Shown one piece after another: positions 1 to 64,000 of a stretch of 64,000 bases of DNA. Source of the stretch: Nereocystis luetkeana (Eukaryota; Sar; Phaeophyceae; Laminariales; Laminariaceae). Position numbers and translations under genes: made by a program. The DNA lies in NCBI GenBank assembly GCA_031213475.1, contig JARUPZ010000020.1, positions 620,001-684,000 of the forward strand, written 5' to 3'. How positions within the stretch are numbered: the first letter of the stretch is position 1; each line of letters opens with the position of its first letter. The notes under the pieces are model-generated. The model ran no database searches, was not told where the DNA came from, and was given only the letters and a program-made list of their open reading frames with translations.

Positions 1-1318
1 CCACAACCGCCTCTGCTCCTCAGACAGCTGTTACAACAATTTTCGTTAATATTCTCTATTCCATAGACACTTACTTGCTAGTAGCACAAAAACAATGGTG
101 ATTTCCTCTATGATTTCCTCTATACTCCTCAGAGACTTGCTATAATCTGTTTTTGACGTTATTTGCTACTCAATCACTTGCTTCAATTTTTTCAAGTGAC
201 GCTCTCTAACCCCCAGAGACTTGCTGTGACAGAGACTTGCTGTGAATACAATGTTTTGAGTGATTTTCCCTACGTCCTCCTCAGCAAATATACTCATGAT
301 GTATACGATGGTTGTAATGTTCTGTGCCCCTCAGACAGTTGCGACACCACACACCACTTCGCGTGGCGTTGGTGATGTCGGCGGCGGGACGCCATCGATG
401 GCGCGCGTTTTTTGTTTGTTTCCACTGATCAGCCGAACGCGCCACACGTAGCCAATCCCATCATGACGCATTTAGCTGCAGATGGTGTTTCAGGCATATA
501 CGGCGGCTTAACTTGTCAGCATAATAAATGTTTCAATGTTTCAGAGCTGTCTGTTCACGGGTCAAGAGATGTTCAAAATTTCACGGGTCAGGTCGGGTCG
601 GGGCTGATAACGTTGACCCGACCCGACCCGACCTGACCCGTGAGAGCTTGAGAATCTCCTGATCCGACCCGAACCGGCCGGACCGGACCGGACCGGACCG
701 AAGCGGACCGGACCGGACCCGACCCGTGCGACTTCCCGACCCGAAACGCGGGTCAGGTCATGACCCGTAAAGATCCTTGCCAACATTGTCAATTCGAACA
801 TCGGATAGATGACCATCTATCTGATCTATCTGGTCTATACATACTAACATCCTATGCATCATACAGATAATATATATACAATAAAGATCATGTAGACCAT
901 CTAGATCCTGAAATTTCCGCCATGAGATGTCGTGCGTGAGCCGTATCATATAGATCCCGCCGGGAAGACGTGTTTATAATCATACAAACCCCATCCAGCG
1001 AACTTTATCTACTCTACATCTTGTACATCACATAAACCAGGCAAACATATTCCCCGACATATCTACAGTAGATAATATCTAGATTATGAAATAGGGATCT
1101 GATACTCGTATGTTCGATCTGTGCAATGTTTCACGGGAGATGTGCACCCTTTGGTCTTGAGAGCTACGAGGGGGTGACACGTTTCCTTATTGCTATCGTG
1201 CGACTAAGTCTAACACTTGAGATTGCTGGCGTCTCCTCTCACTGTGCTCTACCGCCTCGCCGTAAGAAGAAACATCTAACCTCGACGGGTTTCCATGCCC
1301 CCTTTACTCCATCGACAG
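1..1318. other. Intron of the CFAP57-like gene, with an old GGGTC-type tract
   Basis: No exon is convincing here. 575-770 is a degenerate GGGTC/GGACC hexamer tract. The end near 765-784 (reverse complement CAAGGATCTTTACGGGTCAT) resembles the terminus of the hAT-like element at 17680-18523, so this is probably an old copy; I could not find a target duplication. Confidence 0.5.
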
Positions 1319-1384
1319 AACCAGAGCCTGGTGGATGCCCACACGGAAACTCTGCAGAAGGTCATCGAGGAATACGACAAGAAG
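1319..1384 (+). CDS. CFAP57: CFAP57-like exon a
   Basis: Phase 0 in and out, 22 residues, beginning [13 protein letters not shown] and ending VIEEYDKK. The acceptor is CGACAG and the donor is GTGAGA. Nothing convincing precedes it in the window, so the upstream exons are off the left edge. Confidence 0.8.
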
Positions 1385-3552
1385 GTGAGAGAACCATGTA
1401 CAATAGCAGCTCTAAGGCTCCACAGGGGCTCTTTTAGTGCTGCTATGTCCACCATTGACCTCGCTCCGGTGAAAACGATATTCGTCAGAAAGGACGGCAG
1501 CTTAGCTTGCACTGCAGAAACCGTCGCCACGGCAGAATCGTTGTGTACTACATACTTTACTACAGCAAACAACCGTGCTACAGCAAAGGTAAATGGACGC
1601 ACGAGACATGATGTCTTGTTTTTTCAGGAAGCGATAGTTAGTCATACCATGGTACTACACAATAACTACACGAATTCAAGATATTTTTTTTTTTCAGTTT
1701 CATCGGAGGGTAACGATAGGGATAGCACCGGCTACCATGGGTTACTAATTCCTGTATCTTTTTTTGACAGGGATAGCAGAGGCTACGATAGGGATCCTGC
1801 TGTACCTTTTTTTGGTCATATTTTTGTGACTGACAGCTTTTGAACTGAGGGACTAGCCAGTAAGGGATGCCTTATGATCGTCATCCCGTTTGTGTTTTTT
1901 CAACATTATTATTGTCACTTTCCTAATAAACCTACTGTAGGCCGAGGGATTGATGCCATTTTTATATATCTACTCAGTCAGCTTTTGAGTGACTTAGTAA
2001 TCGTACGGAGCTTCTCGACTATATTCAAGTCAGGGCACCCGGAAAAATTAGTTGCACGCCATGGGGTGAAATTTATTACTTAAAGTCTTGAATTTGTGTT
2101 TATTAAGTCATTGTTTTTTTTAGAAGACGATGCGCAAGTGTACATAGTGCGCTTAACCATTATTTTTACCCATTCACCGGAAAAATACAATAGGAACACT
2201 ATATGCCCCTGGCGTAGTTTCTTCCTGGGCGCTGAAAGCCACTTGGGGGCGTTTTTCGGCGTTGTCAGCACGTGTCTTATTTGGAGCGAATACGAATTTC
2301 TAATTTGCACGGCGCGAAAAAAAAATTAATTTGCCCCTTTCGATCGCCTTAGTCTACAGTATCCCAGAATCTATGACTGACCGCGGTATAATCTCCTAAA
2401 TCTATCGGGATTGGTGTTTTTTTAGTCGAACAAAACCTCCCAACGCACAACGCACACAAGTTGACAACAACTAAAAATATCCTGCGGCGCCGGTTCGCTC
2501 GTAGGTAGAGGAAGCGCAGTCCAAGCAGAGGCTCTGGAGCGATTGAAGCTTGAAGGGAACAGTTTCCGCCACACCGCGGCAGGGTTTTTTTGTTCCATGT
2601 ACCCCACGTTGTCTTATTCGCACCTGTCGGTCATGTCGGCCTATACGGTCACATTTCCCCTCACGTAAGGCGTGTTTTCTCGACATTGCTGTTACCAGGT
2701 CGAGGAAGAACAGTCCCAGCAGAAGGAGCTGGCGCTGGAGAAAGATAAGATGGCCACCGCGTTCGACAACCTGAAGAAGCTCGTAGAGGAGGATGCCGAC
2801 ACGGAGGCGGAATACGTCAAGGTTCGTAAAAAAAACACATCGCATACGTGAGAAACCAGAAGTATTTATTAATAGCTTATTTGGCGGCTAGATGGCCACC
2901 GCTTTCGACACCTTCAACAAGCTCGTACAAGAGAATGTCGATACGAGGTGAAGCAAAGGCACGTCGCGTACTTTTTTAGAAAACGACACATCCACTTTTA
3001 TTGCAGCCAACGTGAATGGCGACCGCGTTCAACAACCACAAAAAGGTGGTACGAGAGATCGAGAGGACGCCAATACGGAGGTGGAATACGGCAAGGTCCG
3101 TAAAAAGGTAAATCGCATACAGTACACTCACGACAGCACCTACAGCAGACAGCAGTAACAAAATTAGGAGCTCAAACGAAGGGGGTCGAGCTCTGCACGA
3201 ACTATCTGAAAATTGTGTTTTATACTGAAATTAATGTAGGACAAACCCTGCCTCGCACAAGAATAAAAATAAAAACAGTAATAAGAACATGAGCCTGGAC
3301 CAATGTAGTACCAGGTGCGTGCTTAACTTCTTAGATGGCATCGCGTACTGTACTTGAGAACCAACAACAAGTATGGCTTTTTATTATATTGCAGCTTGCT
3401 TCTTTTCCGTAGCTCATCATCATATCCGCCCGCATCGGTGATTGGAGTAGTTGTTTGTCATCCCCTGAATAAAAAAATATTCGTTATCATCCAACCCCCC
3501 TGATTCCGAAAATAATGATTTATCAACCAACCATCAGTAACCAACCGCACTG

Positions 3553-3604
<52 letters not shown>

Positions 3605-6600
3605 CATACTGGTATATATAATACCGGTAATTCATAAGGTATTACTAGGTGCTTCGCTCCGCGGGCGGCCTACGCCGGCCTCTACGCTCGCTCAGGAAGG
3701 AAAAGCACATCAAATTACTATTAATACGCGAAGCGGACAGAGGTCCATGATTGAATAGAGTTTTTTGTATGATTGTTGTAGTTGCAAACTGGCGGCTTGA
3801 TAATGCCAAGAGTCCCGCCGCCATGCTTCAGGAGAAAACACCTCGAATGCCACATACGCTTCGCGTCGCGGGCGGTTCCGCCCGCTACGCTAGCTCACAT
3901 GCCGTACGTGCGTACATACCCCAGGTAGGGTAGTTATTTTCTTTTTTTGCTATGTTTTATGTACGAAAGAGAAAGGATAGTACGGCACAGCAGCACCGCA
4001 AAAACAATGTAAAATATGAAACCGAAAATTCCGGAAAGAAACAAATCCCCATCCCTCTCACGTAATAATTTTCTAACTGATTGGAACACCAGGCACCGGT
4101 CAAAAAAAAAAAAAACGAACAGCAGAGCTTTTCTCTCAGCCTCGTACGCCGTCCGCCCCTCTCGCGACCACCTCGCCTCCGATTTGGTCCGGGTAAAACT
4201 TTCCTTACTCTCTGCCACAGTGAGCCCCGTCGCCCGCCTCGCGTTGAGCCCGGTGCTCACCATGGCCGTCGTTCGCAAGCTCGACAACGTTGTTGCTCAG
4301 ACTGGGTTTCTCCCTCTGTGATTTCAGCCCGGTCGCAAAAATAAGCATCGCTTGAATATTGCCTTGCAATCCCGAACGAACCTTATATTCTCGTACATAC
4401 GTACTCAATCAAATTATGCAGATGTAGGCCAGACAGAGCCCATTCATGCTTCCCACGTGTCTCGAGGCACACGCGAAGCCTAGGCACGAAAGCGGCGACC
4501 GCGCTCTCCTTTCACTCCCCCCTCTACCCGCCAGCACCCGCTGACACCCTTGACGGTGCTGGGCTGGCCCGCGGTGCCGTGCTCCGAGTACACACTCGCA
4601 CACGAAACGAAAGAAGAAAAAAGAAAAAAATAGCCGGAAGTGCCAAGAGAAATGGAGAACACAAAGAACCGCTGGAAAGGTCCGGCAAGTAAAAAAAGGA
4701 GGCGATTTCCAAGTTGGAGCTCTGAGAGGCCTGGGATGTACCAACCGAGCACGCTCAGAGAGTGAGGTATCTATAAGTAGTTCTCCCCGCCATGAACATA
4801 AAGGAACGCAGCAAGGACAACGTTTCCTGGTGTTTTATGTTTAATTGGCAACAGTGCTGCCGAGCTACTGTAGAAATTGAACTTCGCTTGTCGAAACTCT
4901 GCAGGCGTTTGCCGTTGCTATGGTAGTCCCTATACCTGCATCAGTCTCTTTAGGCGCGGAAGGCAAACCTAAGGTGTTTGCGCTTCTCGAGTCGATGCAG
5001 CATGCTCTGCGATAACGCGTACGGGAGCCCTTTCACCAGTGCAAGTATCAACACATCAACACATCAGCACCACCCCATACTATTAATAATCCCGAGTGAG
5101 TTCTCGCCGAAACGGGAGTGCAGTCTTAAAGAGGTTCAAGGTGGTGGGCTTGAGGGATTGCTCGTCCGAAAAAATGTGTTTGTCGCCCGCCGTCTCCACG
5201 CCAACACTGGCACTTTTCTGATGACTATTAGATCATACTAGAGTAGACGTATTCGACTTGCTGCCATTCATAGTACATTCTTACGGTAGGTTCGGGCACA
5301 GTTTGACCCCATTGCACCATCCTACAACATTACCCTACCCTCCTCTTGACAGACAAAATTCATGGCTAAATTAGCAGCCGAGAGGGAGGCTACCTTGCGG
5401 CTCAAGGGCACAGTTTGACCCCATTGCACCATCCTAAAACATTACCCTACCATCCTCTTGACAGACAAAATTCATGGCTAAATTAGCAGCCGAGAGGGAG
5501 GCTACCTTGCGGCTTAAGGGAGAAAACGGCATCATGAAGAAAAAGTTCTCCAGACTGACCAAGTGAGTGAAGATTAAAGTTGTAGCAATACTGCCATAGC
5601 AAATACCATCTTTGTCACGGACCTTTTGGCCTATTGGCCTACTCGCCTCCTAACCTACTGGCCTATTGGCCGACTGGCCTATTGGTCTACTTCCCGATAG
5701 GCCTATTGACCTATTCGCCCATTCACCTATTATTGGCCTATTGCCTCTCCATCTAGCGCTGTTCTGCTTGGGCTTGCATGCTAACATTCAGACAAAGAGA
5801 CAGGAGACTCTCTCGGATTCGACATCTTCTTCTTATCTACCGCGTACCGTTTGGCCCTGTCGTCAGCAGTTTGCCATCGTATAATGTGCAGCATGAGCTT
5901 CAACTCGATCCCTTCTACCTGTAGACAATACAATAGACATATAGACATTACAGTAGACACTACCGTAGGCGTTACACATTCCCAGAAAAAAAAAGAACAC
6001 CAAGGGAAACCAGAAAAAGAGAAGCCATACGTATACGCACGATTTATTACTCCCTTCTGTACCCAATTCCAGCCTAGCTAACATCGACCTACTCCGACAC
6101 GATCTATCGATGCTTGCAATGAAAGGCAAGTGGAAGATCAAAAGGAGGACATCACCACCTTGCAAGAGAGGCAGAGGGACCTATTCGACACTATCAAGTC
6201 CCTCGAGAAGGACATACAGGTTAGCACCGCCCATTGTCACGAATCTACTCGAACAACCGAACACCACTCAAACGTAGACACCTACTCGTACACTCGTACC
6301 ACGCATCATATGTATCCGATAGGAGCATACGCTGATTTCACTCGTGTTGTTGTTGTGGGAGGTGGTGGGAGTAGCTGACCGCATTCTTTGGATTTAGGTA
6401 TTCCTGAGGTATTCTGCCACTCCAAAAATAATGGAAGCCTGGCTTCTGATCACGGACCAGCTTTTGGCGATGACTTGATGTGAGAACAGCAACAAATGTC
6501 TGTCGGGACCATTTCGTGAGTTGTGTTTTTCGGCGGTTTCTTGATACAGTAGTAGGCAGGGTGGATTCGTCGAGGCTTTCATATATATGGCACCATCGCG

Positions 6601-8378
6601 GCTTGCTGTGGTTGGAGGGCTTTTGCAAAGGTGGCATTATCGCCTCCCAAAACAAAAAGTGGACAACTTATTCACCCCTTCATAACCCCGCATCACCCTG
6701 GCCATAAATATAGTAAACGTTCGATACTCTTATCGAATTCCAAGTGGTTGTTATATTGCCGTTCATCGTGGAGCCTTCTTGGTCACTGCTATCAGTACGT
6801 AGCACTTGCAGATATTTCCGTGTGGGTGCGTAGGCGCTCGTCCCTGTACAGCTGTAGGGGGTTGTAGTCTGTAAGGTTGACGGTGCTTGCCGTGGTCCTC
6901 GTATTCGTGCTCTGATGTCAGTTTCTTCTACTTTTCCGAGTCCGTTTATTATCTTCGCCCTTATTTTATCTCTCCCCTCTATTACGGGGGACCATAGTTA
7001 ATAGGACCAAATATTTATTAGTAGAAATGGTTAAATATATAGGTTTTTATATACAACATAGGTCCTACCCTGGTATTAACTATGGTCCCCCGTAATAGTC
7101 GTAGCTGAGATCCGGGGTCAGCCACACAGCAGCATAGCAGGCAGGCTCTTTCCTTCCCCTCTCCCCTCCCCACTACGGTTCGTGCCTTGCTTTCTTTGTC
7201 GCGAGAATACTCCATCCCTTTCTTCCCTCGTCGACTCGCGTCTAATGGTGGTATGTATCGGCTTGAGTCAATCTAATGAGAACCTCATGAGGGTGTTGGC
7301 ACTGAAGTGCCCTTGTTTACGGTGATGATGTTCGTCGATGCGTTATCACTGGTGTCAGCGTTGGGGTGTTCCTGCTGGATTGGACTGTGGCGGGCTCGGC
7401 TCGTGTGCTGCTTCGTCTTCCTGGATTCGGAAAATAAATAATTGAGCAACTTCAACCCCACCCACCAATAATTCATCTACCCCCATTGATCATTTTTAGC
7501 GCGACGTTGTGATGGAGGCAGTGAGACGAACTTTGATGCAAACAATCTTTGGTTTTGTTGGCGCCTATCTGTGCCATAGTGGTGGTAATAAAAGTCGAAG
7601 CAATGAGAGAAAATCTGATGCAAACGAACGTGTTGTGTTGGTGTTCGTCGGCGCTAAAACGGAGCGTAAGAATCGAAGCAGTAGGACCAAGTTGTATGCA
7701 AGCGCATTTTTTTTTGTGTTGGTACCTGTCCGTGCTATAGTAGGGGAATATTAATCAACGAAGCGAGACGAAAATTGAAGCTAACGAACGTCAAGTAAGT
7801 GTTGGTGTCTGTCGGCGCCATAGTGGAGGCGTAATAATCGAAGAAGTGGGACTAAATTGTATCCCAACGCATCTGTTTTGTGTGTGTCGGGGCCTGCCCA
7901 CCTGTGCCGCAACAGGGGCACAAGAAGGAGATTCGGGAGAGAGAGGAGACCATCGCCGACAAGGAGAAGCGCATCTATGACCTCAAGAAGAAGAACCAAG
8001 AGGTCAGGACCAAAAGCGGTGCAAACAGTAGATCCATGGAACATATCGGATATCCCATTTCGTGATACGGATAAATCTCTCTCGAGACAGGGACAGGGAC
8101 AGGTAGATAGATCCGTCATAGGTTTGCGCGATACCTGGTATTCAGCAGTAGATAGTGTTTTTCGGGTGGTGTGTGCATCATATTCTATGACGCGGCTTTT
8201 GCGCACGTTGGTTACAGGCGTGTGGGTGGTGTGGGTGGTGTGATCTGTATGATACGGCTCTCGCCCAATATCCCATTACGGAGATGATCTAGATGATCTA
8301 GATGATCTGATAGATAGATAAATAGATAGATAGGTAGACGGACAGATAGATACAGTAGATAGATAGTTAGATATATGC

Positions 8379-8419
<41 letters not shown>

Positions 8420-8450: not shown

Positions 8451-8522
<72 letters not shown>

Positions 8523-11500
8523 ACATATATATATATCGTGATCTGCCCTGTGTGTGAAATGTTTGGACAAGCATACTGGAAAGTCTGCATTGGACGGACA
8601 GCGATGACCAGATGAGTGCTGAGGCCGCACAGCAGTGTACATAAAATAAATGCCACTCTGAAATGGACGGAATTGTAAGGAACGTTCGTGTCTTCCTATG
8701 AGTACCTAAACGGTTCTTATATTTCCATGCATAGTGGTAGTGGTAGCAGCTAAGTTAACCCTTTCACTGTGTATTATACAGCAAAAACGACTCAACTCTA
8801 ATTGCAAGTACTGTAGTTTGTCTGCAGAACGTGCGTGCAGTTCTTACATATTCGTACGTACTCTATCTGGTATATATACAGGAGTTGGGGTACATGGGCC
8901 AAAGCTACGATTCAAGAGAGGGTGTGTCAGGCCTAGTGCCTACCTGGTATTGAGCAGCAGACCTCTTTTAAACTGTTTTTCCTCTTTAATCGGAGTGGGT
9001 GCTGTACATGTTTTCGTAAATTCCCGCGCCAAACGATTAGATCTCTCTTCAACCGGGTTTTCTCTCAAGTCGGGAGTGGGTACTATGTAGCTTTTGGTGA
9101 GCCCGCTAAGCCTAAGCCATTTGACCTGTCTCAGATCAGGCTCTCTTAAATAATAGTAGTCCCGCTGTAAGGGGTATATAGATGATTGAAATGGCGCACA
9201 TGCGGCAGGATAGCTTGAAATGGTACACGTGCTGCTTGCGTATACTGCTTGAAATTGACTCGATATTGATTGAAGAGAGGAAGCCTGCGGCAACTCTGCG
9301 CCAGTAGTTGGTCTTCAAAATCAGTTGTTCTGATCACTCTCGCAGCTGGAGAAGTTCAAGTTCGTTTTGGATTACAAGATCAAGGAGCTGAAGCGCCAGA
9401 TTGAGCCGCGGGAAAACGAAATATCGGACATGCGCCACCAGATCGAAGAAATGGATCTCGAGCTCGAACAGGTATGTTTTTGTTGCCCTTAAGGCTTACG
9501 AGGTACTATGCATGACATGTGACTTGTCATACACGTCATACATGTATGTAGGACTTGTGGGACTTGTACCGTACTACGGCAGGGGGCGCATTTCTGAGTT
9601 TTACGTCTCGTGCGGTTCAAACGTAGTGTGCTGTTCGTACTTCACTTCGGTTGCAATGGTTGACGCTTCAGCCGTGCTACGGTGTAAGAGAAGGGTACTA
9701 CCTGGTACTATAATAACACGTTGGGGCCAAAACGTTTGTGACTGACGGGGCTCCTCAACCATTGCATCAACCATGGCAACGCTCAATATACTCAGTACCC
9801 AATGTATCTCGAATACAGCTGCCTTAATAAGATAGTATTGGTGGTGTGTACTATTAATAGGCACAACCATTGCAACTGGATCCGATGCGTATTTCCCTTG
9901 CGTGTTATTCGAACATTCGAACCCATGGGGTTGTGTATCGGACTTGAGCTGCAATGTTCTCAAAACGTCGATCGCGGGTAAGGTTATACGAGATCCTCAC
10001 GTCACGAGCCTCACAAAATGTGGGTGCTCGTACCCCTTATACGTAGCACACGTCTATGTACCACGCATCAGATTCACAACATATTTGCTCCGTCTCGAGC
10101 GCAGGTTATCTGAGCTAGAGCTGATGTTATAGCTCTAGCACATACATGCTCGATGGGAAGCTAATACGACCAGGTACCAGGTTATTTTAAGTTGTGTTCA
10201 TATTGGTACTTTCTGTAGGGTGAAACCAAAACCGATGTGTTTCCATATACCATTTATACCTGGGACGATTTTTCGACCCGACTTTCTCGAACCAAATATG
10301 GCACGCACAATGCACAATTGTCAACCAAAAGTATTTACGTACGTACCAGGTGGTGTCTCTGGTGAGATTTCGTCGAGATCTTTCCGTAGGTGCATCCATC
10401 CCTTGGCGGTTGCGCCCTCCCATTTAATGAGAAACTAGCCCTCTCATTTGTGGAGACAAATATCGTAACATGGGAAATCGTCCAAGAGGGTGTACTGCCG
10501 TATCGCTAGCGGGTTATACGGTTTCAGCTCGAATAAATTGACGAATCATAAAAGCATGGCCTCAGGGCATCGACATCATAATTGCGGAGGAGGCTGCTCA
10601 TGCTGCTCCTGCTGTATCGTTTGTTGATATCTGCGATATTGATGCTTACCAGTTCTTATGAGCTACCTGATGTGTCGAGTCACTAGCAAAGTAGCTGTGT
10701 TTTCGTCATTATGTGTGCCGTTCACCCCGGTAGTCTATTGCAAGGGATACTCATTATCCTACCGTATATTATTAATAGTAATAATAACACTTGAGGTAAT
10801 ACTTACGACAACACACCCTCTCGGACGAACTTGAAGGCTGTTGTTTTTCTGGACAACAATGAGAGTGTGAACGCCAAGTAATACATTCACGAGAAGGCGT
10901 GGACGAGATATTTCAAACGCCACCATTCTGGTGTGGTGGAGTGTCCTTGTCCTTTTTACGGCGAAAACTTCGAAGGAAGTTCGTACCGCAGTGTGTTGTC
11001 TTATCGCTAGCGTGTTATCGCCAACCTCCACACCGCAGTTGGCCATGAGTGCGAATCATGGCCATGGGGATTCGTTTTTTGAGCGTTACGTATTACCTGT
11101 TTGGTATCTAGCTGCGGCGCGAATAAGCGCAGTTCAATGCGAGTTTTGAGTGAGCCCATGACCGAAGGACGCCCCCAACTCGCGATAAAACCAAGGCGAG
11201 CACGGGGGGGGGGGGGCGAGCCCTGCTAGGCAGCCCCGTATCTGACCTACAACGGCAGAAGGGCAAGACATAAATAAATGCAAGATCTTTGTCCTCGGGG
11301 GGGGCGGGGTGTACCTCATGTCATGCATAGTCGTAGCCGTATGAACATGCATGACGGGGGGTGCTGGTGTGAGATTATATAATAATCGTGCAGCTGCGTA
11401 ATGCGTGTTCGCCTCGTTGTGCCACGGATCTCTGTGCGATACGTCTATTCATCTAGAGTTGATGGATATTCCACGTAAGATTCTCCACCCCTGATGTGAA

Positions 11501-14500
11501 GAGTGGTGAAGGAGGGTATCAGGTTTTCTGTTTCAGCGGAGCGGGTGATTTGCGGGGATACTTTTTCCCGCATTGTTGTGTGGTGCGTAATTGGTACGAG
11601 TATCGGAACATGCTTGATGTGGCATAATAATATCAGTCACTTTGTATACTGTGATGCTAATGTCGGCAGTTCTTCCAACAGGTAATACCTTGATACGTTG
11701 ATACGTCAGAAGGGACCTCTCTGATACTATTAATAGAGTTATAGCACGCAACGGTACGTAACTTCACTTGCCACTGGTGATAGTGTGATGTTGGTATACT
11801 ATTATTAAGTATCACCGCAGTGATGTCGCACACGAGAGCCTTGCATTGGCAACATATGGGACGAGATATCATCGCAGTGATGTGGCACATGATAATTTCT
11901 CGTATTGCCAGTGGGAAAATAGCTGGAGGGGGTACAGCAAAGACGATGTATTGGTGGACAAACTATAGTTGCGGATTAGGAGGGAGACGTTCGGTACTAA
12001 AGGGTCAGGCGTGGCTTTCTTGGTTCCCCTGTTTTTTCGTTGGTGTCGGGACGAGCAAGGGAGGAGGCTAGATAGGGGCCCACCTCTCTCACTTCTCTCT
12101 GTCCCCTTCTTTCTCCACCCGACCGTCATGTTTAGGCTGGTTTAACATAAAACATCTTCTTCTTCTTCTTCTGCACGTCCCTATGGCACCGTAGGGTTTT
12201 TTCCATCGCCGTATCACCCCGCACCGAGATCATCCCTTAGAGCTTAGAGGAAGGGGGTTTAAATAACGTTGTTCGATGGTCTTGACTTGCCCCCAGATCC
12301 AGCAGGCCACAGCAGTCGGCGCCAGCGCCGCCCCCGAGCTGACCTGCGTATTCGTCCGCTTGGCCGCTGAGGCTTGCGCGGCGGTTTCGACCGGCGGAGC
12401 GCGGGAGCGGTAGCGCCGTGCTTTGGTCCGCTTGTCGCGGGCCAGCGAGCCCTTTCCGGTCTCTTTCTCGTAGTACTGTCAGAGTTGCAGTATACGTTTT
12501 GCGCTTTCCAAACGTGCCTGGAGCTGGGGCCTAAACTCATATTTTCGCCGGACACCACCACACAAGAAAACTGCGTTTGTTTGTGCTAATTATACTACAG
12601 GCACCTCCCACAGTCAAGCGTCAATCGCCAGGGGGGGGGTGGCGATGAAAAATCCCCTGCTGAGCAATGAAAAACATACGCTGCACTCAGGGTGCCTCCT
12701 TTCTTACGGGTGTCGAGCTATATTACCTACTACTGTAATACGATGTGAGCGCCCGGGTTTCAACGGGTTTTGTCTCCTCGCCGCGGCAATACTATCAAAA
12801 CGCAAAAAAGCGGGGACGGTACTTAAAAATCCCCCTATTTTATCCTGAAAAATTCAGGGTGGGTCCCAATTGGGCTGGGGATTACGAATCTGAAGTCAGA
12901 AATTTGAAATCGTACCTCGTTACGTACTAAAGGCACGCAACGCTGGGCAGTTTGCGCATTTGTTTTGATGCGAAGCTGCTCTTCAGCACGTTTTGGACTA
13001 AACGGACCTCAAAATAGCCGGATGGAAAAACAAAACCGCTATCATGACCTCATAGCTGTTACCTGATATAGCCCAGTTTATTCCCCCTTACGAGTTTGTT
13101 GCTGAAGCACACCGCAGAAACCACCACCCGAAAACACAAACGTGCTGAGAATGTACTGCTTTCATGACTGAACTCTCGACCCTCCGGGGGCCCGAGTTTT
13201 GCTTGGATCGCAGATCTGAAAAGCTCTACCCCCCCTGGGCGGTTAAGCGGCGTCGTTTAAGCGTGTGCGCCGGGAGAAAATTCCTTTTTAGTTTTTTTGT
13301 CTTTTCGAAAGGTTTGCAGGAATTTTGGGATCAGGATGTTTTTGTTTCGTTTGTTTTGCGCACATTTCCTATCGTGTTATAACGACGTTTCCCACCGTTT
13401 CCCCTATTACGGGGGGGCCATAGTTAACAGGACCAATTATTGTTAGTAAAAATGGTTAAACATATGAGGTTTTATGTGTACCATAGGTCCTGTTAACTAT
13501 GGTCCCCCGTAATAGTTTGTTTTCTTTTTGCTGAATAGTAGCGTCTCCGCAGTAAATATTGGTTGATCGCGGCTGGCGTTTACATTAGGTTTTAACCATA
13601 CTTTCGTGAACCAATGTGCAGTGAAGTGCCACAATCCAAAATTTCCGGCTGCAGAGGCTGCACACTTCGTATTATACTTCGGTCAGTGTTTAGAGAGACG
13701 AGCTTGCCAACAGGAGTATCAACATTTAATGTTGCCGCCATGCCGTAACCTGGTATTACCCTGGTGTATACGTAGCTTTTCGGTTGGGAGGTTGTTTCGT
13801 TCAAAGCGGTTCGGTTATTGGCCATTTATATGCCGGTATATATGTACCATTAATAAGTACCTGGGACCTGGTATTATTTTTGGCCTGTTTTGTGACCACG
13901 GGCTAGATTTTAGGGTAATGAGCTATCTATAATGTGATATCATCATCATCATCATCACTCATACTAAATGCTCATCTCCAATGCTTTGCGCTGTGTGCTG
14001 TACGATGCACGTGGCAGTACCACAAGAGCAACTCTGCCCTCGACCTGATGATTGGAGAGCTCCGTCTGAAAGTGGACGGCATGCAGAAAGAGTTGCAGGC
14101 GCAAAACAACAGGCTTGAGGAAGGAGCTCGCTTCGCGCGACAGTTCCACAGCGACCTCAGGGTGGCAGTACAGGTGCTCACGGCATTTTGCGATTAGCTT
14201 AGTAGAGCCTGTGCCGATGCCGCGACAAAATAATGAGAACAAAATGTTGATTGTAAACATAGGGGCATGTATGCTTTTTGTGTCCATGGTAGGTTCTGAT
14301 CACTAGATTACTACCAGGTATACAATAGCCCCTCGCAATAGTATAGCAGCGTGACCTGAGGTACAAGTACAGCAGGGCTCGCAGCGTCAATAAGGTTGGT
14401 GTCGCACACGGTCTTGCTACCACGCATAATATGTCCACACGGAAGAGCTGTGGACTGCTGGTAACGCTGCATACCACCAGGTAGAGTGTTATCCAACCAG

Positions 14501-47690: not shown

Positions 47691-48885
47691 TTAAGGTCAA
47701 CCTGTTTCCACTTGCCGTAGTTCGGTATTGAAGTTCGGCGCGACCCCCCGTCTCGTGGAGGACTAGACGGTGTATCCGATGACGAACGTGGAGGAGTAGA
47801 GCGTGTAGCCGACGATGAAGCCCCGCGAGATGACACGGGGATGCCCTGTGCATATTACCGTGGGTTTCGAGTCGAGGCGTGCGAGTTGGAGGCGAGTGGC
47901 GTTCGTGAGGGGTCGCGCCATCAGGTCGTTATCACACTGTGATTGTACTTGACTCTGTACAGCGCAAACATACGAAAATGTACTGCGATATTTACGTTGT
48001 ATACGGCCTGTCGTTGTACATGCCCTTGTGATTCGCGCATACATACATGGATGGATGTTACTTGGGGTGGAGCGAGTCTAGGGTAGTATTTTATCAGCGC
48101 AATGCTAGCTTACGGGCGGTGCCGCACGGAGTGCCTTACCTGAAACTAGTGGCAATAAACATACAGGTACTACTGTTGGGGTCACAAAATGCACTCACTT
48201 CATCCCACGGCAGAATTTTTCACAAGAAGATCCAAAGTCGCGCTGGACCGCACCGTACTGTCACCGCATGTACCGCTTTCTCGCGCCAGATGGATTTCTC
48301 TTTTTTGCCAGAACGAAAGGACGCTGCAAACGTTCTCGGCCCGTGGAAAACCCAAATTCGGCTTCGATCGGAAGCTATAAATACCTTTCTTCACGTTCCA
48401 CTACTAGCGATCGATCTGATCATACTGCAGTCCTTCTTGTGGCCAGCATCCTGGGTACTATTATTATATTAGTATCCCCTTCGGGAATATGCTTCGGTCC
48501 CACGTACTATTAATAGTAAAAAGCACGGCAACTCTCGCAGTGATATTGCGCTTCAATGAGCCGCGCCGTGCATGTTCTTCTCTCAAGTTTTTGTGGATTA
48601 TTATACGAGCGAAACAAACCAATGTTGTTGTGTATTTCCAGTGAAACGAAAACTACTTATATTGTACCTGGTATACTTTTTCTGGCGGTGGGAAACACGC
48701 CATACGGAAAACCGCATTCCTCCATAAAAACAACTAACTGATGATGATGTGTCTCGACAGTCTACGTTGTGACATAACTTACATTCACACCAACCTTTCT
48801 GGTGCGGTTGTCAGATCAATGCGATGCGTTGTTCGCCCCGAAAACACCCCTGTGTTGCACTGCCCATAAAACACACAAAAAAAGT

Positions 48886-50092: not shown

Positions 50093-50725
50093 AACCTCCT
50101 ACCAGGTACGAGTTAGCCTGGAAACAAAAAGTGAGAGTGATGTTTTAAGAAAAAAGTGCAACACAGGTGAAAAAAACGCGCCGAGAAACGAGAAACTGGC
50201 TCAGGGACTATAGGTAGGGGTCGAGAAGTATATATAGGTTGCTCGCGCGAAGCGCGAAAAAAATATATACCTGGTAGGCGTTTTTCTCGGGCGAGCTACA
50301 ATACGAAACACTTAGTAATAGTGAGAAAAAATAAGAAACAGGAATGCTGGTGCAGCCCGAATTTCTTATTCGGGAAATTTCTATACTGACTTCAGTACAA
50401 CGGCTCTGAAATTTCTTATTTTCCTGCCATTGTTGACTATTACAGGGGGCTCCTTTACGTGTGTTCTGGTAGAGGGCAAGATTATTATTTTGTTTAAAAT
50501 GTTAAAAGTCGGCTTCAAGTAATAGCGCATATCTACTCGAGACAAAATCCGATTGCAAAACGGTTTTTCACGTTGGATGACCTGGCACTTTTCGAATAGA
50601 ACGGCAATGCCGGTATATTTGATGCATATGAAGGGTTGTGGGGGTGTCGTCACAAAGATGGGCAACGAAAAACTCGAAAATACATTCCGTACGACTGAAG
50701 CTAGCTGCTCTAGAATTTGATCTCT

Positions 50726-55938: not shown

Positions 55939-58900
55939 GTGAGTGGCGCCTTACCCCCTTGCAAACTACAAGGTTGCAGACAACCTACCAGGGCCTCTTG
56001 TAGTGTGCTTCACGAGGAGCAAGCGGTGGGGATACCAATGTATTGTTGTGACCTACCAGGTATTTCTCAGTATGTTGTACAAGGCGCTTCGCTCCGCGGG
56101 CGGCCTACGCCGCCCGCTACGCTCGCTCAGGAAGGAAAAGTACATCAAATTACCATGCGAAGCGGGCAGAGGCCCATAATTATTGAATACCAGGTACCTG
56201 GTACCTGGTATCGTTTTTTATATTATGGTCGTACAGTAGTTGCAAACTGGCGACTTGATACGACTAGTGCCAAGAGTCCCATGCTTCAGGAGAAAACAGC
56301 TACTCTCGCTCAGGAAGGAATTTTTTTCAAAGTATATCCAACTAGTATATGCGAAGCGGACAGAGGTCCATGATAGAGTTGCACCCCGTCTGACTGAGAA
56401 CCGGGTACCCGGTGGCGGGTACCCGGAACCGTCGGAACCGGAACCGTCCCGGTCCAACTCACGGAACCGCGGGTATTTGTACCCCGGGTACCCGGGTACC
56501 CGGGTACCCGTCAATTGTGCTATACGGAGGCCCCAACGTTGGTTTACACTCCAGCGGCTGTGCCTCTCAGCTCTAGACTCTCGCCTCTCGCCCCTGCAGA
56601 CTACAGACCGAGAATAGAGAATACCCCTATTAATACCTGCCTTGCCTACCACGCCGCCGTTCCAAAGCTACAAGTTTAGCAAATATTGTATGGTAACCCG
56701 GGTACCCGTGTCCGCCTTACCACGCCGCCGCTCAAACGCAAAAGGGGAGCTAATAGTGTATGGTAACCCGGGTCTACATGGGTACCCAGATATCCGTTTC
56801 CGCCCCATCCGCCGCCGCTCAAACGCTAAAAGGGGAGCAAATAGTGTATGGTAACCCGGGTACCCGTGTCTTCCGGGACCCGGGTACCCGGTTCCGGTTC
56901 CGCCTCAACCGCCCCCCACCCGGTCGGGTACCCGGTTCCAAATCTTGAGGCCGGGGTGCAACTCTAGTCCATGATTGAATATAGTTTTTTTTTTAAATTA
57001 TGTTCGTAGTTGCAAACTCGCGACTTGATAATGGCAAGAGTCCCGCCGCCATGCTTCAGGAGAAAACAGCTCGGACGCCACATACGCTTCGCATCGCGTG
57101 CGGTTGCCGCACGTACGTACGTACATACCCCAGGTAAGCTACTTAATTTATTATTATCATGCTTGCCATCCGACAATGTGTAGTGTTGTTGTTCCAAAAA
57201 ACGACTACCTGGTATTAAATAACAGAAAGTGAAGAACTCTCCAGAACGAAAGCGCGGCAGTATCATACGACAAATCAAAACTGATGTGACGCTCATGAAG
57301 TCTATACTTGATTTATTATTATGATACCATGTATGCTGTCGGTATATACGAAAAAAGAGAAAGCACAGCACGGCACAGCGGTACAGCAGCACCGCAAAAA
57401 CCATGTAAATTGAAACCGAAAAATTCGTGAAGAAAAAACAATCCCCGTCCCTCTCCTGAAATATTTTTCTGTCTGACTGGAACACCTTGCACCGGTCGAA
57501 AAAGAAATCAAAATGAACAGCAGAGCTTCTCTCTCGGCACTGGGCCGAGGGATAGGTACAAAGTTATGACTTACAAGCAAAGAACAGCGTAAAAACAGAC
57601 TAGACTTTTCGAGCTTGCACCGATCACACCAGAGCTAGGACTTACCGTATGACTTGCAAAATGGCCGTGATTGGCCAACAGTGCCGTTACAGCTCCTGAT
57701 GAGCACAAATATCGTATTGAGCGTGCTACGAGTACAACAAGCAGGCTGTTGCACATTGCTGCGACCATGCCGCCCAGCAGCACCAGCAGGAAAAACCATG
57801 CGCGTGAGGTGGCACACCCACAGTATACTCTATGGTTTGGTGCATGTATCGGAGCCTGCGATGCATCACGGGGGATGGACAGGTAGAGCTTGGGGTGCCG
57901 GCGCATGATGTATCCCGACTCCCGACCGCACCCACCACGACGACCAAATACAACCGCCACCACCTGCTGCTGTTGCCCAGCAGCAGAAACAGGCCAAACC
58001 AGCGCGTGAGGTGGCACACCCGCGGTGTACTCTTGGCTACTGTAGTAGCTGTGATTGCAAGGGTCGGAGCCTACGACACATGATCGAGGATAGATAGGCA
58101 GAAGTTGGTGTGCGGGGGCATGTATGTGTGTATCCCGACTCCCGAACACACCCACCGATCAACAACCAACTGCCACCAGGTAAAATTGCGTGAAGGGGTG
58201 ACACATCCGGGGTGTACTCTCGGCTACTACTGCAGACTGTACTTACTTACTTGTAATCGATGCACGTTTCGGAGCCTGCGATGCGTCATCGACGATAGAG
58301 AGGCAGAGCTTGGGGTGCGGGCGCATATATGTATGTACTCTATGTACCCCTAATCCCGACTACGCCCACCACGATCAACAACCAACTGCCAACAGACATA
58401 CCTGCGAGAGGTGACACATTCGGGGTGTACTCTTGGCTACTGTCCTAGTTGCAAGTGTCGGATCCTACAATGCATCATCGAGGATAAATAGGCAGAGCTC
58501 GGGGTGCGGGCGCATGTATGTATGGATGTATGTATGTATCCATGTATCCTAATAATCCTGACTCCCGACGACGTTCACCACAACGACCAACTGCCACCGG
58601 ACAAAACTACTCATCCTCCAGCAGCAACAGGCGCCCAGCAGCAGCAGCAGCTTGCAAAATCATGCGCGTAAGGTGGCACATCCGGAGTGTACTTTATGAC
58701 TAGTTGCGTGCATCGGAGCCTACTCTGCAGCACCGAGGGTGGATAGTAGGCAGAGCTGGGGGCGCGGGCGCATGTACAGCATGATGAATCATAATTATTT
58801 GTCATCCCGACTCCAAACGACACCGACCTCAACGATCAACAACCGCCACCAGAAAAAAAAACCCGCTGTTCTCCTCTGCTGTTGTTCTGAGCAGCAGTGC

Positions 58901-61900
58901 AATTCTCATCCAGTTGAGAGGACAGCAGTACGCACGTGCCTGCTGTCGCAACCGTTTGCCTGCACCACCGCCACGCACCACGGTCTCTGCTGTTGTTGTT
59001 CGAGCTGTGCGGTTGGTATTTTGGATCGACAACAAGCTCGTCACACCTCAGTGACGTATATATAGTGGACCCAAAAGCTGCGGCACAGCAGCAGGGTGTC
59101 CACTGCAACCACTCCAGAGCACATCAGCAGTAGTAGTAGCAGTATAGTTCCTGCCGTCGTCTTTTGCCTCCACACCACACACACCGCCTATATCTTGCTG
59201 TGCAAAAGTTGCTCGACCGTCATTGAGGGTGGACAAAAATCGACCGAAACGCCTAAAAACCTTTTAATTTACACAAGTTGTCCCTATCCCTCGGAGGTGA
59301 GCCGAGAACTGAGCTCTTACGGTGCGCAAGCCATAGTTTTGGAGGTGAGTCGCCGACTTTGTACCAGCGTGGTTGACGCTGAAAGGGAAGTGTGGTGTGT
59401 AGGTGTCTGCGTTCTACTGCACTGGTGTAGCTTGCTAGCTCACTCGATGACCCACGATGGTTATGCTCGGACAGGCTGGTTTGTCTATTCACGACGGGGT
59501 GACGCGCTTCAACTTGGTGTACAAGGCTAACCCTGGAGAGGCGGCATCGGCGAGCATGGCCAAAGAGATGGGGGGCTTTTGTCAGCAGATGGTGTCGTCT
59601 CTCACGTGAGCTCTATCTATTATCTCTATATAAGAGTATGGCCTGTCGTCTGTTGCAGCCGTTGCCCCCCCCGGCATGGGTGAAAGACACAGCCACCCGC
59701 GATCGTTTTGCCACCGAAAGTAGGTGAGTTAGATAATCACGACGACGTACGACGTATTCGTCAGAGGGTTTATAGTGGGTGTCCTCCTTTCGGCTGTTTC
59801 CTACCAGGTATGCGGTTCGATCGCGAGCTTCAGATTCGTATTTTTCGATCCCTAAAATAAAACCATCTGATTATGCAATCCAAATATGCAAAATCTGACG
59901 AAACAAAAATGCTTGGAAAATCCGATGGCCCAAGTCGTCAGAGTTTGGCCCGAAATCCGACGACTTGGGCGATCAGATTTTCAAATCGAAAAATGGCATG
60001 GTCTCTAAATTCAAGATGTTGTTCACGACAGCGAGAAGCAGCAGAACGACATTGAGTTGGATGGTGAGACAGTTGTATAGCGAAGCTGCTTCGCGCCCGA
60101 CGCACGGTCGGCGGTCGGCGCGTCTCTCCGTGGCCAGACTACATACAGTCGGCTGGCACGGGCCCGGGCCTACAGACCAAGAGACGCGCAATCGGCGCAC
60201 ACCTCTCCGTGGATACGCACACGTAGACTACAGCAGCAGCAGTCAGTCACATTGTGAAATACAAAATACCAAGACAGGCTGACTCTAGCGCACTCGGCAC
60301 GTCTCTTCGTCGCCAGACCAAAGGCAGTCATCGTTGGCTCGGACGCTTGAGTCCTACGCGCAGTACAGCGCACCCAGTGCGTCTTTTCGCATCGCCAGAC
60401 CACGAAAATAGCAGTTGGTCTCGGCGTTTGCTCAAATCTCTGCACGCACAATAAATTCGATTTTTCCGCATAGGAAGACTGTTTTGATTTGCGAAGTTCA
60501 CAGCTGAGAATGCGATCGGATCAAAATCTGGAGCTCAAAATATGAACCGCATAGGAAACAGCCTTCCTGCTGTCATTGTGCTATTGAAGTGCTGGTTAGA
60601 GCTGGAAATCGACGAGCAGTGCTAATGCCCAACCTTTTTCGCCTTATACACTATTAATAAGCCGTTTACCGGGAAGGAGAAGGGGAGAAACCTGTGGCCA
60701 CGACGTGTACAGAGGGTTCACAAGGCCGCCGAGCGTAAATTGTCATGGGATATAAGCTGAGAGGTATCTCCATGCATCAAAAGGAATGACATACCATGTA
60801 CATACCCTACTCTACACACCTTTTGGAATGTTATACCTCAAACGAAACAGTAGTACATACCTGGTACCTGATACGTATACACGATACCGGTTCGAATAAT
60901 CGGGTATTCGAACAGCAGCCATGAGTACAAATAGCCGCAATTCGGTTTACTTTGATCACCCAGTACCAGAACAATTAATTACTATCTAATGTACTCCTCT
61001 CACGACCATAACATCACCCCTCCCCATCCCGCCTCTTCAGGCTGCTGTCGTCGGTTGGAGCCTCTAAATTCATGGTCATGTATTTCTCTGCCGGAATTCG
61101 GGCCGTTCTGCACAGCCTGAAGGACCTCGTCCAAGCGCTTCTGGACCCCTCTCGGCATTCCCAAGTGAATACCCTGACGGGAGTGGTGAGCGTTTGCCAT
61201 CGCCGTCGTCCGCAGCCACTGCAACTCTACGGCAACTCTATAGCAGTGGCCAGTGTTGGACGTCAACATAGCAGTAGTTGCGTCGCAGCAACAGTAGTAA
61301 CTGTTTGACAAGAGTGTTGTTACTGGCAATCCGAATCCGCACGGAGTGATATGCAGGTAATATAGGGTAGGATAGCAGCGTTGTGGCAGCAGTGATGCTG
61401 CTCTATCTGGTTGCAAGGGGCGCTGTCAAACGGTTAAACATACGAATTCCCAGGTGTGGGATCATCTTGGCGTACTACTGTCTGTAGGCTCCTCGATACA
61501 CTACCGACTATCGGTCGTCTCATGTATTAGTAATCTTGTGTCCCATGTCTGGATGCTCCATTTGTCGCTGCATCTCGAGGAAGCAAGCTCAAGCATGTAC
61601 CGGTACCAGGTATATACTCGTAGCATGGGGTCAATGTCTTCGGCAGGACGCAAGTCTCGCGGCGTGGGCTGTCGTTGTGTCATGCTGTAAATATAATGCT
61701 ACAAGGTATAAGGTGCATGAACCGTCAGATGCGCCGTCTGAGCTTAGCCGGCATTGGTCCCGGTCGTGAACGCCGAGATCACGGAGGCTGAACATTTTGG
61801 AAATATGAACCAGACTGCACTCACAGCTGATAGCGTTTTCGCAATCAACAATGAAACTACGCATTGTGCAAGGTATGGCAAGGATGCAAGGAGCTACAAC

Positions 61901-63480
61901 AAGCACCGAAATCGAACAAGCTGGCCTGTCGCCGCCAGATGATGCAGGTGAGAGATATCGTGTCACACGAGTGTACCCCCAGGCGTGACCCACAAGTACT
62001 TAAGTAGTCACCTGGATTTTGTGGGCCTAGGCAACGATAGCGCAGGAGACGCGCGACTTGGCATCACACACAGGTTTTACTGCAGGTACGTGTATACCAG
62101 GGTATGGCGTAATATTTCATGTGTTTCACGGCTGTGACCTTGCTCTAATGGTAGTGAGTGATAGGTGCAGCATTAGCTTTTTTCGCGCCGATGGCCCATC
62201 GTGCTCGCCCTTAGGGTTTACTCTCGTAACAGGTCCGAACGATTATCCCACGTACAACACAAGCAGTCAGGAACGCACGCAACTTTAGAATATCGCTAGT
62301 ATTGATGTTTCTAGGCTGGTTGCGAGTACCGACCTCAAGACTTGTGTGTGAGATACCTCGCTTCCAACTCCGCGCAAGCCCGACGGTAGGGTTGATTGTG
62401 CACCGGGCGTGATATGGTGACGGAGGCATGCTACGCAGGGGTGGGTGTACCTCAATTGTCTCAGGCTTCTCTTACTCGGTATATAATCGTACGCTTAACC
62501 CGATGAACAATACTATTATTGTAGTATAATCGTACGCTTAACCCGATGAACAATACTATTATTGTGTTAGTATCTCCTACTGCAGCTATGTAGTGAATCC
62601 TGTTGTACATCCCAATCATCCAATCGGGATTCCAACGATACTGGATATTCCCCACTTCAGGACTACGTCGTCCTGAAATAAGTTTGCCCGAAAGGGTTCC
62701 TGTATCGTACCCTTAGCGTGGCACGCGCCCACCGCTGCCTGCCTGCCTGCCTGCCTACCTGCCTGCCTGTCCCGAGGCACCCCTTAGGCACCCCTTAGGC
62801 ACCCCTCATATTCCGCCTGTTGCCGTCTGTTGGTGTACTTTTCTGTGCAGTGGAGCGTTGCGATGAAGGACACGATCGACGAGTTCCAGGAGGCAGTGAA
62901 GACCGCCGCTGCTGCCAACGCCGATAAGTCAGATGCTCCCAAAGATGCTCAAGCGCTTGGTCAGGAGCTAAGTGGATCAAGCTTGGGGGGAGATGGGGCA
63001 GGAGAAGAGGACGACTTCGACTTTGACGATATGGACGAGGAGTACAGCCCGTCGGAGCTGCAGTGCGTAACGGCGAGTATAGACGTCTTGCGGGCGTTCC
63101 GGCGTTGCCTCAAGGCGGCTAACGACACTCTCAATACCCTCGACTCGACTCAGGCACAAGGGGAGAACGCAGCGGTGGTTGGATCGCAGGGGGCGGATTT
63201 GTTAGAAGGGCGCCTGCAATGGGCGCAGGCAGTGCAGGTGTGCCTGGAAGAAGCACACGAGTGTGCTGGCGACTTGGGGATGCAGCTTTACCCACCGTTG
63301 GACAGCAGTGAGTTGTCGGGGCGGGCGGACGATCTGGGGCGAAAGTTGGCGTCGTTTTGTGATGTGTTTTACACACGTGAGGAGGAAGGAAGAGTGGAAG
63401 ATGGTCAAGAGCAGTCGCCGCTTCGGACGGTTGTAGAAGAGAAGCTTGGTGTGCTGCGAACGGGGATGGCACAATTATGA
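55765..63480 (+). CDS. Cyclin-D1-binding protein 1-like (CCNDBP1/GCIP family), 5 exons
   Basis: Exons 55765-55938, 59475-59605, 61041-61185, 61873-61947 and 62851-63480 give 384 residues with closing phases (0, 2, 0, 0) and stop TGA. The family (GCIP/Maid; human about 360 residues) is all-helical and binds cyclin D or HLH partners in animals; algal roles are unknown. Family landmarks are FNLVYKANPGE in exon 2, AGIRAVLHSLKDLVQALLD in exon 3, VWQGCKELQQAPKSNKLACR in exons 3-4 (cf. the VWEAC..L...PKSN pattern) and AMKDTIDEFQEAV in exon 5. An acidic patch (EEDDFDFDDMDEEY) precedes a helical C terminus. Exon 4 was found by frame and family fit; its acceptor GTGCAAG is weak. TATAAATG at 55632 could be a TATA box. 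Confidence 0.8.
56374..56966. mobile_element. Non-autonomous hAT-type element with a GGTACCCG-repeat body
   Basis: 593 bp, TIR TAGAGTTGCACCCCG (15 nt, perfect), target duplication GTCCATGA at 56366-56373 and 56967-56974. The TAGAG terminus and 8-bp duplication indicate hAT. The interior is dominated by GGGTACCCG/GGAACCG units and three GTATGGTAACCCGGGT-type repeats. The pre-insertion site survives once at about 3744-3751. Confidence 0.95.
57135..57300. mobile_element. Short dispersed element R3, copy 2
   Basis: Matches 36618-36775 over its length (TGCTTGCCATCCGACAATGT ... GTGACGCTCATGAA). Confidence 0.75.
57807..58850. repeat. Degenerate tandem array, five units of about 185-265 bp
   Basis: Units starting near 57807, 58006, 58191, 58406 and 58668 share GTGAGGTGGCACACCC, GGTGTACTCTTGGCTACT, CGGAGCCTGCGATGCATCA, GGCAGAGCTTGGGGTGCGGG and ATCCCGACTCCCGA in order. 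Confidence 0.88.
59475..59605 (+). CDS. CCNDBP1-like exon 2
   Basis: AGLSIHDGVTRFNLVYKANP and onwards to QQMVSSL; acceptor CGGACAG, donor GTGAGC, leaves in phase 2. A TSS-proximal candidate exon at 59660 was rejected because it breaks the frame. Confidence 0.8.
59792..60563. mobile_element. TIR element with ends GGCTGTTTCCTATGCGGTTC
   Basis: The left end is GGCTGTTTCCTA + CCAGGTA + TGCGGTTC and the right end (inverted, 60544-60563) is GGCTGTTTCCTATGCGGTTC, so the left end carries a 7-bp insertion. No coding capacity; the interior has GACGACTTGGGC hairpins (59932-59970). Target duplication not identified. Confidence 0.75.
60604..60745 (+). repeat. SINE-like repeat S1, diverged copy 3
   Basis: GAAATCGACGAGCAGTG and GAAACCTGTGGCCACGACGTG align with S1. 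TATTAATA at 60647-60654 stands where copies 1 and 2 have a single TA. Confidence 0.6.
61041..61185 (+). CDS. CCNDBP1-like exon 3
   Basis: Enters in phase 2 (acceptor CTCTTCAG): LLSSVGASKFMVMYFSAGIR then AVLHSLKDLVQALL; donor GTGAGC. Confidence 0.82.
61873..61947 (+). CDS. CCNDBP1-like exon 4
   Basis: 25 codons VWQGCKELQQAPKSNKLACR plus RQMMQ region, supplying exactly the family segment missing between exons 3 and 5; donor GTGAGA. Confidence 0.75.
62851..63480 (+). CDS. CCNDBP1-like exon 5 (terminal)
   Basis: 209 codons from WSVAMKDTIDEFQEAVK to TGA; acceptor TTTTCTGTGCAG. Strong coding bias over its whole length. Confidence 0.88.
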   Translation, partial: WSVAMKDTIDEFQEAVKTAAAANADKSDAPKDAQALGQELSGSSLGGDGAGEEDDFDFDDMDEEYSPSELQCVTASIDVLRAFRRCLKAANDTLNTLDSTQAQGENAAVVGSQGADLLEGRLQWAQAVQVCLEEAHECAGDLGMQLYPPLDSSELSGRADDLGRKLASFCDVFYTREEEGRVEDGQEQSPLRTVVEEKLGVLRTGMAQL

Positions 63481-64000
63481 CGTCGTTGATAGTATCAGGG
63501 TTGCTGTAGTTTGCGAATGCCTGGCATCCAGCAAGATTTTGCGGATACCTCGCGACCCTGCCGGACGACAGGGATTTTTTTGCTGGAAAAGCCGCGGGAT
63601 TGTATGTGTTAATGTGTGCTATTTATACTCTTGGGCACTATATAGGTTTCGGTTTGCGGTTCCCTCCCCCCAACCTCCCTCACCTGCGTAGTAATAACCA
63701 AGTCATACACATTTTTGACCACTCCGTGAGTCTCACTGTTTGCCATCATTTCACGTAAAAGCTTCAGAGATGCGGAGACTGTTCGTATGGCCGGACGGGT
63801 TTCTCATGGTTTTTGCCTGTTTTTTTTTTCGTTTTTTTGGCAAATTTGGACCATCTAGACTAGATATTTTCGGTGGAAACAAGAAACAAAAACAAACGCC
63901 CCCCGCAGGTCAGTCCTCGGTTAGGAGATACATAACACGTGTGCAAAGTTCCAGGTTCTATCTCTGATAAACGCCGTGGACGCTTGGACTTTAGCGCGGA
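63481..64000. other. 3' flank of the CCNDBP1-like gene
   Basis: No further gene is supported. It probably includes the 3' UTR; no canonical polyadenylation signal is obvious. Confidence 0.4.

Follow-up and report, generated by a model that had tools for sequence, protein, structure and literature searches.

A TACCWGGTA scar family at TA sites of a kelp genome, probably the excision footprint of a DNA transposon

The scar of Sleeping Beauty, TAC(A/T)GTA, has an A/T centre, as does the CCWGG core (W, A or T) of the word studied here, TACCWGGTA, which recurs through a 64-kb stretch of a kelp genome (C20:620001-684000 of the host assembly, hereafter the window). Footprints of the Tc1/mariner group share with the kelp scar the TA target, the TA on both sides and the retention of a few end bases, whereas the kelp core is five bases long, is present at more than 10^5 copies per genome and belongs to a parent that we only infer. 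In the portion of the literature consulted, mariner and Sleeping Beauty are described as cutting three bases inside, leaving 3-base 3' overhangs (PMC7827188), and the pogo-type Passer, a TA-inserting relative of Tc1/mariner, as leaving scars of 0-4 bp (PMC9976928), compared with which the kelp scar is longer and uniform. For the brown alga Ectocarpus, 17 Mariner-Tc1 families with almost 12,000 copies, mostly non-autonomous, have been reported, in an account whose main text contains neither the word footprint nor the word excision and in which no description of a scar family was seen (PMC12477816). A literature search, which included TACCAGGTA as a string, returned no report of a CCWGG scar family among the matches listed. 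A transposon footprint is therefore a known kind of sequence, and what is new here is its core, its number and the readable record that it forms at single TAs.

TACCWGGTA is a seven-base insertion at TA

The window contains 28 exact copies of TACCWGGTA (11 TACCAGGTA and 17 TACCTGGTA), where an order-3 Markov model predicts 0.6, and its one-mismatch neighbours occur 0-4 times each. The initial annotation had counted at least 20 copies against a chance expectation near one per 64 kb; all 23 positions that it named hold a real copy, none being off by more than 8 nt, and further copies are found at 50268, 56188, 56195, 56202 and 59802. Its three sites of the variant TACCCTGGTA are likewise present, at 7066, 19113 and 34040, with an additional reverse-strand copy at 62095. 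The statement that no copy lies in a supported exon could be checked only against the two open reading frames (ORFs) with Pfam support, RWP-RK (34871-35398) and GCIP-like (62788-63477), and neither contains one.

The genome-wide count against a background, which had been proposed as a check, was carried out on the host assembly (465,085,209 bases, 1,987 contigs) and gave a strong excess, with 182,395 copies compared to 1,744 for the reversed pattern; scaling the number of TAs from those sampled, about 0.7% of all TAs carry a CCWGG scar. In a 264-kb sample, composed of the window and the first 200 kb of contig C1, 87 copies were found compared to 1.8 expected. One-mismatch forms are also in excess in this sample, 107 compared to 50.5 expected, which indicates that the copies span a range of ages, and from this excess we roughly estimate a mean divergence of ∼7% per site. 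The words TACAGTA, TACGTA and TACCGTA are about 2-fold over expectation, and we leave them uninterpreted because TA-X-TA words generally run high.

Comparison of repeats established that TACCWGGTA is a 7-bp insertion at TA, with TA retained on both sides. The initial annotation had cited three comparisons within the window. In those made here, the scar at 59802 differs from the reverse complement of 60525-60563 solely by a clean 7 bp at TA; two others, the scar at 50100 with 41833 and the array of three at 56188 with 3673-3802, are consistent with it, although in both the empty copy has since changed at the TA or next to it. Alignment of paralogous repeats was then extended to the 78 single scars of the 264-kb sample, of which 30 had a spanning paralogue, and at 15 of these 30 sites at least one paralogue has a plain TA, with 44 pair comparisons showing exactly TA versus TA-CCWGG-TA. 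The remaining pairs comprise 21 that are ungapped and empty with the TA mutated, 18 empty but irregular, 28 filled and 12 other.

The insertion is also apparent among 1,533 indels that distinguish repeats, listed blind to the motif. Seven-base indels account for 41 of these, and 13 of the 41 convert TA into TA-X-TA, X being CCAGG or CCTGG in all 13; the other 28 are not of this type. The same list contains TTAA three times, CCAGGG and CCGG twice each, and compound forms.

Target preference, core variants and a sister scar

The repeat family met at position 50100 of the window contains a TA that has been filled repeatedly, the hot TA. A genome-wide scan that required exact flanks and allowed any gap of 0-30 between them returned 900 matches, and none for the reversed control; among the 100 matches listed, 78 have a plain TA and 12 have CCWGG (6 CCAGG, 3 CCTGG and 3 compound forms, including CCTGG-TA-CCAGG and CCAG-TA-CCAGG), CCAGGG, CCGG and TTAA are found once each, and 7 show other small changes. 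These rates are taken from the flank scan, since the use of a filled query to fetch 30 copies had favoured those that carry the insertion. The idea that every copy of this family once held the parent was dropped, as 78 of the 100 listed are plain TA. For two neighbouring TAs of the same repeat, the scan gave 1,570 matches, of which 100 were listed with letters visible for 72; no CCWGG was seen in these 72 readable copies, and the other 28 listed copies lack a 7-base insert, one of them carrying a 21-base insert.

A preference is also seen in the outward flanks of 76 scars compared to other TAs, the two sides being pooled because the motif is palindromic, which assumes flank symmetry. A is depleted at position 1 (6% versus 20%), T is enriched at position 6 (49% versus 24%) and A or T at position 7 (87% versus 53%), with no preference seen beyond position ∼8. 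Under this profile the hot TA outscores 99.7% of the TAs sampled, although it is itself among the 76 training sites.

Other cores accompany CCWGG in the 264-kb sample: CCGG (14 compared to 3.2 expected), CCAGGG (8 compared to 0.74) and CCATGG (5 compared to 0.29) are in excess, whereas CCSGG is at background (2 compared to 2.0, against 87 compared to 1.8 for CCWGG). The six-base cores were followed genome-wide as TACCNNGGTA, with 28,845 occurrences compared to 4,918 for the control. The 100 of these sites listed include 34 CCAGGG/CCCTGG (a single stretch holds 8, of which 7 are spaced 528 bases), 13 CCATGG, 1 CCTAGG and 13 others, besides the cores weighed below. The initial annotation had left open whether the element ends begin CCA or CCT; the 13 CCATGG compared to a single CCTAGG favour CCA. 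The cores CCATGG, CCAGGG and CCGG are compatible with excision of a TA-inserting element that ends in CCAG. A tandem array with a 528-base period was noted at G000:C1:1304145-1308353, each unit with TACCAGGGTA, a scar that was amplified along with its repeat. A nested TA-CCCGGG-TA-CCCGGG array is found at 56480-56510 of the window, and CCCGGG is not explained by CCAG ends.

A second scar family, TATTAATA with the core TTAA, has 93,112 copies genome-wide compared to 10,689 for the reversed pattern, and its flanks favour G (.55), T (.43) and A (.51) at positions 1-3. For this sister scar there is a candidate source, a miniature inverted-repeat transposable element (MITE), TA-TTACGGGG...CCCCGTAA-TA, of which 12 elements with TA on both sides were found in 350 kb, 98-114 bp long and five of them 105. 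In the same sample 35 of 51 matches to TTACGGGG are preceded by TA, the remainder including chance matches, and the flanks of those 35 are G (.60), T (.74) and A (.60), so that the MITE and the TATTAATA scar have matching target preference. Exact MITE ends, TATTACGGGGGNCCATAGT, number 35,103 genome-wide and 0 in the reversed control. Empty-TA paralogues were obtained for 15 of 83 TATTAATA sites queried, some of the alignments being weak, and for 2 of 12 MITE sites, with weak alignments. Different copies of the MITE carry CCGG, CCTGG and CCCTGG scars at one and the same TA (GTTAATA-GGACC; L067:1982, L082:579 and window 7066), which is possibly a second hot TA.

A probable excision footprint and alternative explanations

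Insertion at TA, the target preference, the variant cores and a sister TTAA scar with an extant MITE all support the proposal, already made in the initial annotation, that a TA-targeting element left the scar on excision. We consider it probable that this element was a cut-and-paste DNA transposon, one duplicating TA and with both ends beginning CCAG, and that TACCWGGTA is its footprint. Such a transposon would insert at TA, duplicating it, and on departure its transposase would cut three bases inside each end, leaving a 3-base CCA tail after the TA on each flank. The two tails would meet by a single A:A contact, which would account for the A/T centre of the scar, as repair could make either A or T, and filling of the gaps would give TA-CC(A/T)GG-TA, CCWGG being three bases of one end and two of the other. 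Joining without overlap would give CCATGG (three and three bases), retention of two and two bases CCGG, and of four and two CCAGGG/CCCTGG. In the sister MITE, whose ends are TTA, the tails would overlap by 2 bases and yield the TTAA core of TATTAATA. One cut-and-anneal rule thus fits both scars, and for the TTAA scar an element with fitting ends persists.

Several observations weigh against this reading. The annotation had suggested a search for a full TA-CCWGG-ended element with a Tc1/mariner transposase; neither the 358 kb searched nor the hot TA yielded a convincing TA-CCAG...CTGG-TA element. In the 358 kb, CCAG-ended pairs within 6 kb at a score of at least 9 amount to 3 terminal inverted repeat pairs, not above control prefixes. 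Counting both strands, the 264-kb sample has 94 instances of TACCWGG without a following TA, scattered over dinucleotides and with no common end beyond known repeats. At the hot TA genome-wide, 13 CCAG forms other than CCAGGTA were found with a pattern that covers ∼56% of continuations, and none is an evident element: in 12 of them recognisable flank follows within 35 letters, and inspection of the remaining one by eye revealed no evident element. A search of the genome for Pfam DDE_3 (PF13358) gave no match. Among the TACCNNGGTA sites listed, 16 CCGAGG/CCTCGG, 14 CCCGGG and 9 CCGGGG/CCCCGG are not predicted by CCAG ends. At the neighbouring TAs of the hot repeat, fetched copies show CCAGG in 3 of 35 alignments, and TTAA in one, which exceeds the 0 of 72 from the scan. 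Finally, 21 of the 28 filled pairs are exact and 7 mutated, where flank divergence predicts 10 exact, although the pairs are not independent.

Other leads to a parent were followed. Pfam DDE_1 (PF03184, pogo-type) has 28 matches in the genome, with no locus tied to CCAG ends; the one locus read (L092) is without clear inverted ends. Inverted repeats flanked by TA were searched for in the window and in C1, and no parent of the CCWGG scar was among them. The candidates c1:21088-21191 and c1:195259-195753 were dropped, being single-copy in the sample, and further CCAG-ended candidate pairs are c1:164208-165100 and 10175-13755 of the window. A hAT-like element at 17680-18523, whose left edge is spanned by TACCAGGG, was rejected as parent, as its ends are CAGGGC with the 8-bp repeat GTTAATAC on both sides; the ends read CAGGGCTTTTCGCGGGTC, and GACCCG/CGGGTC repeats inside it dominate the k-mer counts of the window. 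The missing parent is the puzzle of the CCWGG family. There may be either a few long-lived elements with many exits, or a parent since lost, or only brief residence. That the scars come from elements that are almost never resident, with efficient visit and exit, by a TA transposon or by a transposase acting on its ends, leaving more than a hundred thousand marks and next to no residents in this lineage, is a tentative extension that we hold to be rather doubtful; removal of new insertions by the host would possibly explain it.

That scars far outnumber parents, of which neither the 358 kb nor the hot TA yielded any, would also follow if transposase joined the ends to TA and the joint were aborted or resolved at once with nothing but end bases left behind, each scar marking an attempted insertion, so that few parents would be needed. 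We think this unlikely: the scar has bases of both ends, which requires both to have been joined, the sister family with its 35,103 exact MITE ends in place shows that residence occurs there, and few cut-and-paste elements persisting long would give many scars as well. Nested arrays such as TA-CCAGG-TA-CCTGG-TA-CCTGG-TA, and again the lack of a parent, could suggest a self-propagating 7-bp micro-insertion, in which a CCWGGTA unit is copied into new TAs. This alternative, raised in the initial annotation, is less likely than an excision footprint and in our judgement quite improbable, as the 4- and 6-base variant cores are not expected of a copied unit and, to our knowledge, no enzyme moves a 7-bp unit.

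The word is an exact palindrome up to its centre and 21 of 28 shared copies are exact compared to 10 expected, as might be anticipated for a protein-binding or otherwise selected palindrome that is retained rather than inserted; precise empty sites contradict this, copies of one repeat differ in whether a given TA is filled, and one-mismatch decay products are in excess (107 versus 50.5), which makes it a very remote prospect. Least credible of all is heptamer slippage of the kind that plain CCWGGTA arrays of some bacterial metagenome-assembled genomes (MAGs) may represent, since single units arise from plain TA. A few tandem units do exist in the alga, but the 264-kb sample has only 4 such arrays, with A and T centres mixed. 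The triple unit matches 40 MAG stretches (L001-L040), which we set aside as unrelated, being plain direct arrays without dense scattered singles; viral_contigs contained no match to the triple unit or to the hot empty site.

Features of the window and significance

The scars, their empty paralogues and the MITEs of the window are listed in Table 1. Ten ORFs were tried against Pfam and two matched, the RWP-RK domain exon and the GCIP-like ORF, the latter scoring under Pfam's cut-off. The RWP-RK exon has a relative in Laminaria digitata with 88% identity over 66% of the query, other relatives reaching at most 93%, and this protein similarity suggests that the host is a brown alga. At 48886-49727 lies an inverted repeat whose 192-nt arms are 97% complementary and 458 nt apart.

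Table 1. Scars, empty-site paralogues and MITEs in the window.
Feature	Position	Strand	Basis
TACCTGGTA scar	8132..8140	.	exact pattern
TACCTGGTA scar	8941..8949	.	exact pattern
TACCTGGTA scar	9699..9707	.	exact pattern
TACCAGGTA scar	14312..14320	.	exact pattern
TACCAGGTA scar	32667..32675	.	exact pattern
TACCTGGTA scar	33242..33250	.	exact pattern
TACCTGGTA scar	34135..34143	.	exact pattern
TACCTGGTA scar	34563..34571	.	exact pattern
TACCTGGTA scar	34713..34721	.	exact pattern
TACCTGGTA scar	34736..34744	.	exact pattern
TACCAGGTA scar	35527..35535	.	exact pattern
TACCAGGTA scar	36021..36029	.	exact pattern
TACCTGGTA scar	36304..36312	.	exact pattern
TACCTGGTA scar	36330..36338	.	exact pattern
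TACCAGGTA scar	36350..36358	.	exact pattern
TACCTGGTA scar, common to paralogous repeat at 57206	36676..36684	.	exact pattern, repeat comparison
TACCAGGTA scar	37061..37069	.	exact pattern
TACCTGGTA scar	48665..48673	.	exact pattern
TACCAGGTA scar, hot TA of repeat family	50100..50108	.	exact pattern, repeat comparison
TACCTGGTA scar	50268..50276	.	exact pattern
TACCAGGTA scar	56054..56062	.	exact pattern
Nested triple scar TA-CCAGG-TA-CCTGG-TA-CCTGG-TA	56188..56210	.	exact pattern, repeat comparison
TACCTGGTA scar, paralogue of 36676	57206..57214	.	exact pattern, repeat comparison
TACCAGGTA scar, clean empty paralogue 60525-60563	59802..59810	.	exact pattern, repeat comparison
TACCTGGTA scar	60858..60866	.	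exact pattern
TACCAGGTA scar	61604..61612	.	exact pattern
Variant scar TACCCTGGTA, within MITE 6980-7097	7066..7075	.	exact pattern
Variant scar TACCCTGGTA	19113..19122	.	exact pattern
Variant scar TACCCTGGTA	34040..34049	.	exact pattern
Variant scar TACCAGGGTA	62095..62104	.	exact pattern
Empty-site paralogue of scar 59802, with plain TA	60525..60563	-	repeat comparison
Empty-site paralogue of scar 50100, with CA in place of the TA	41833..41928	+	repeat comparison
Empty-site paralogue of triple scar 56188	3673..3802	+	repeat comparison
MITE TA-TTACGGGG...CCCCGTAA-TA, candidate source of TATTAATA	6980..7097	.	
MITE TA-TTACGGGG...CCCCGTAA-TA	13405..13514	.	
Sister scar TATTAATA	2867..2874	.	
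Sister scar TATTAATA, absent from a paralogue	3719..3726	.	repeat comparison
Sister scar TATTAATA	5081..5088	.	
Sister scar TATTAATA	9852..9859	.	
Sister scar TATTAATA	10770..10777	.	
Sister scar TATTAATA	11728..11735	.	
Sister scar TATTAATA	14957..14964	.	
Sister scar TATTAATA	23306..23313	.	
Sister scar TATTAATA	24160..24167	.	
Sister scar TATTAATA	24354..24361	.	
Sister scar TATTAATA	28307..28314	.	
Sister scar TATTAATA	33073..33080	.	
Sister scar TATTAATA, TA common with scar 34135	34129..34136	.	
Sister scar TATTAATA	34414..34421	.	
Sister scar TATTAATA	39050..39057	.	
Sister scar TATTAATA	39964..39971	.	
Sister scar TATTAATA	48508..48515	.	
Sister scar TATTAATA	56628..56635	.	
Sister scar TATTAATA	60652..60659	.	

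The 7-bp insertions are a source of frame shifts, and they can also mislead searches based on k-mers or motifs. Excision is normally measured by reporter assays, and here the genome seems to hold a readable record of it, in which each scar would stand for one landing and one exit, with the manner of joining visible in its core and its age in the extent of its decay. If this is true, transposition and end joining would become countable across a whole genome, hot and cold TAs included, in a lineage of multicellular organisms that is independent of plants and animals.

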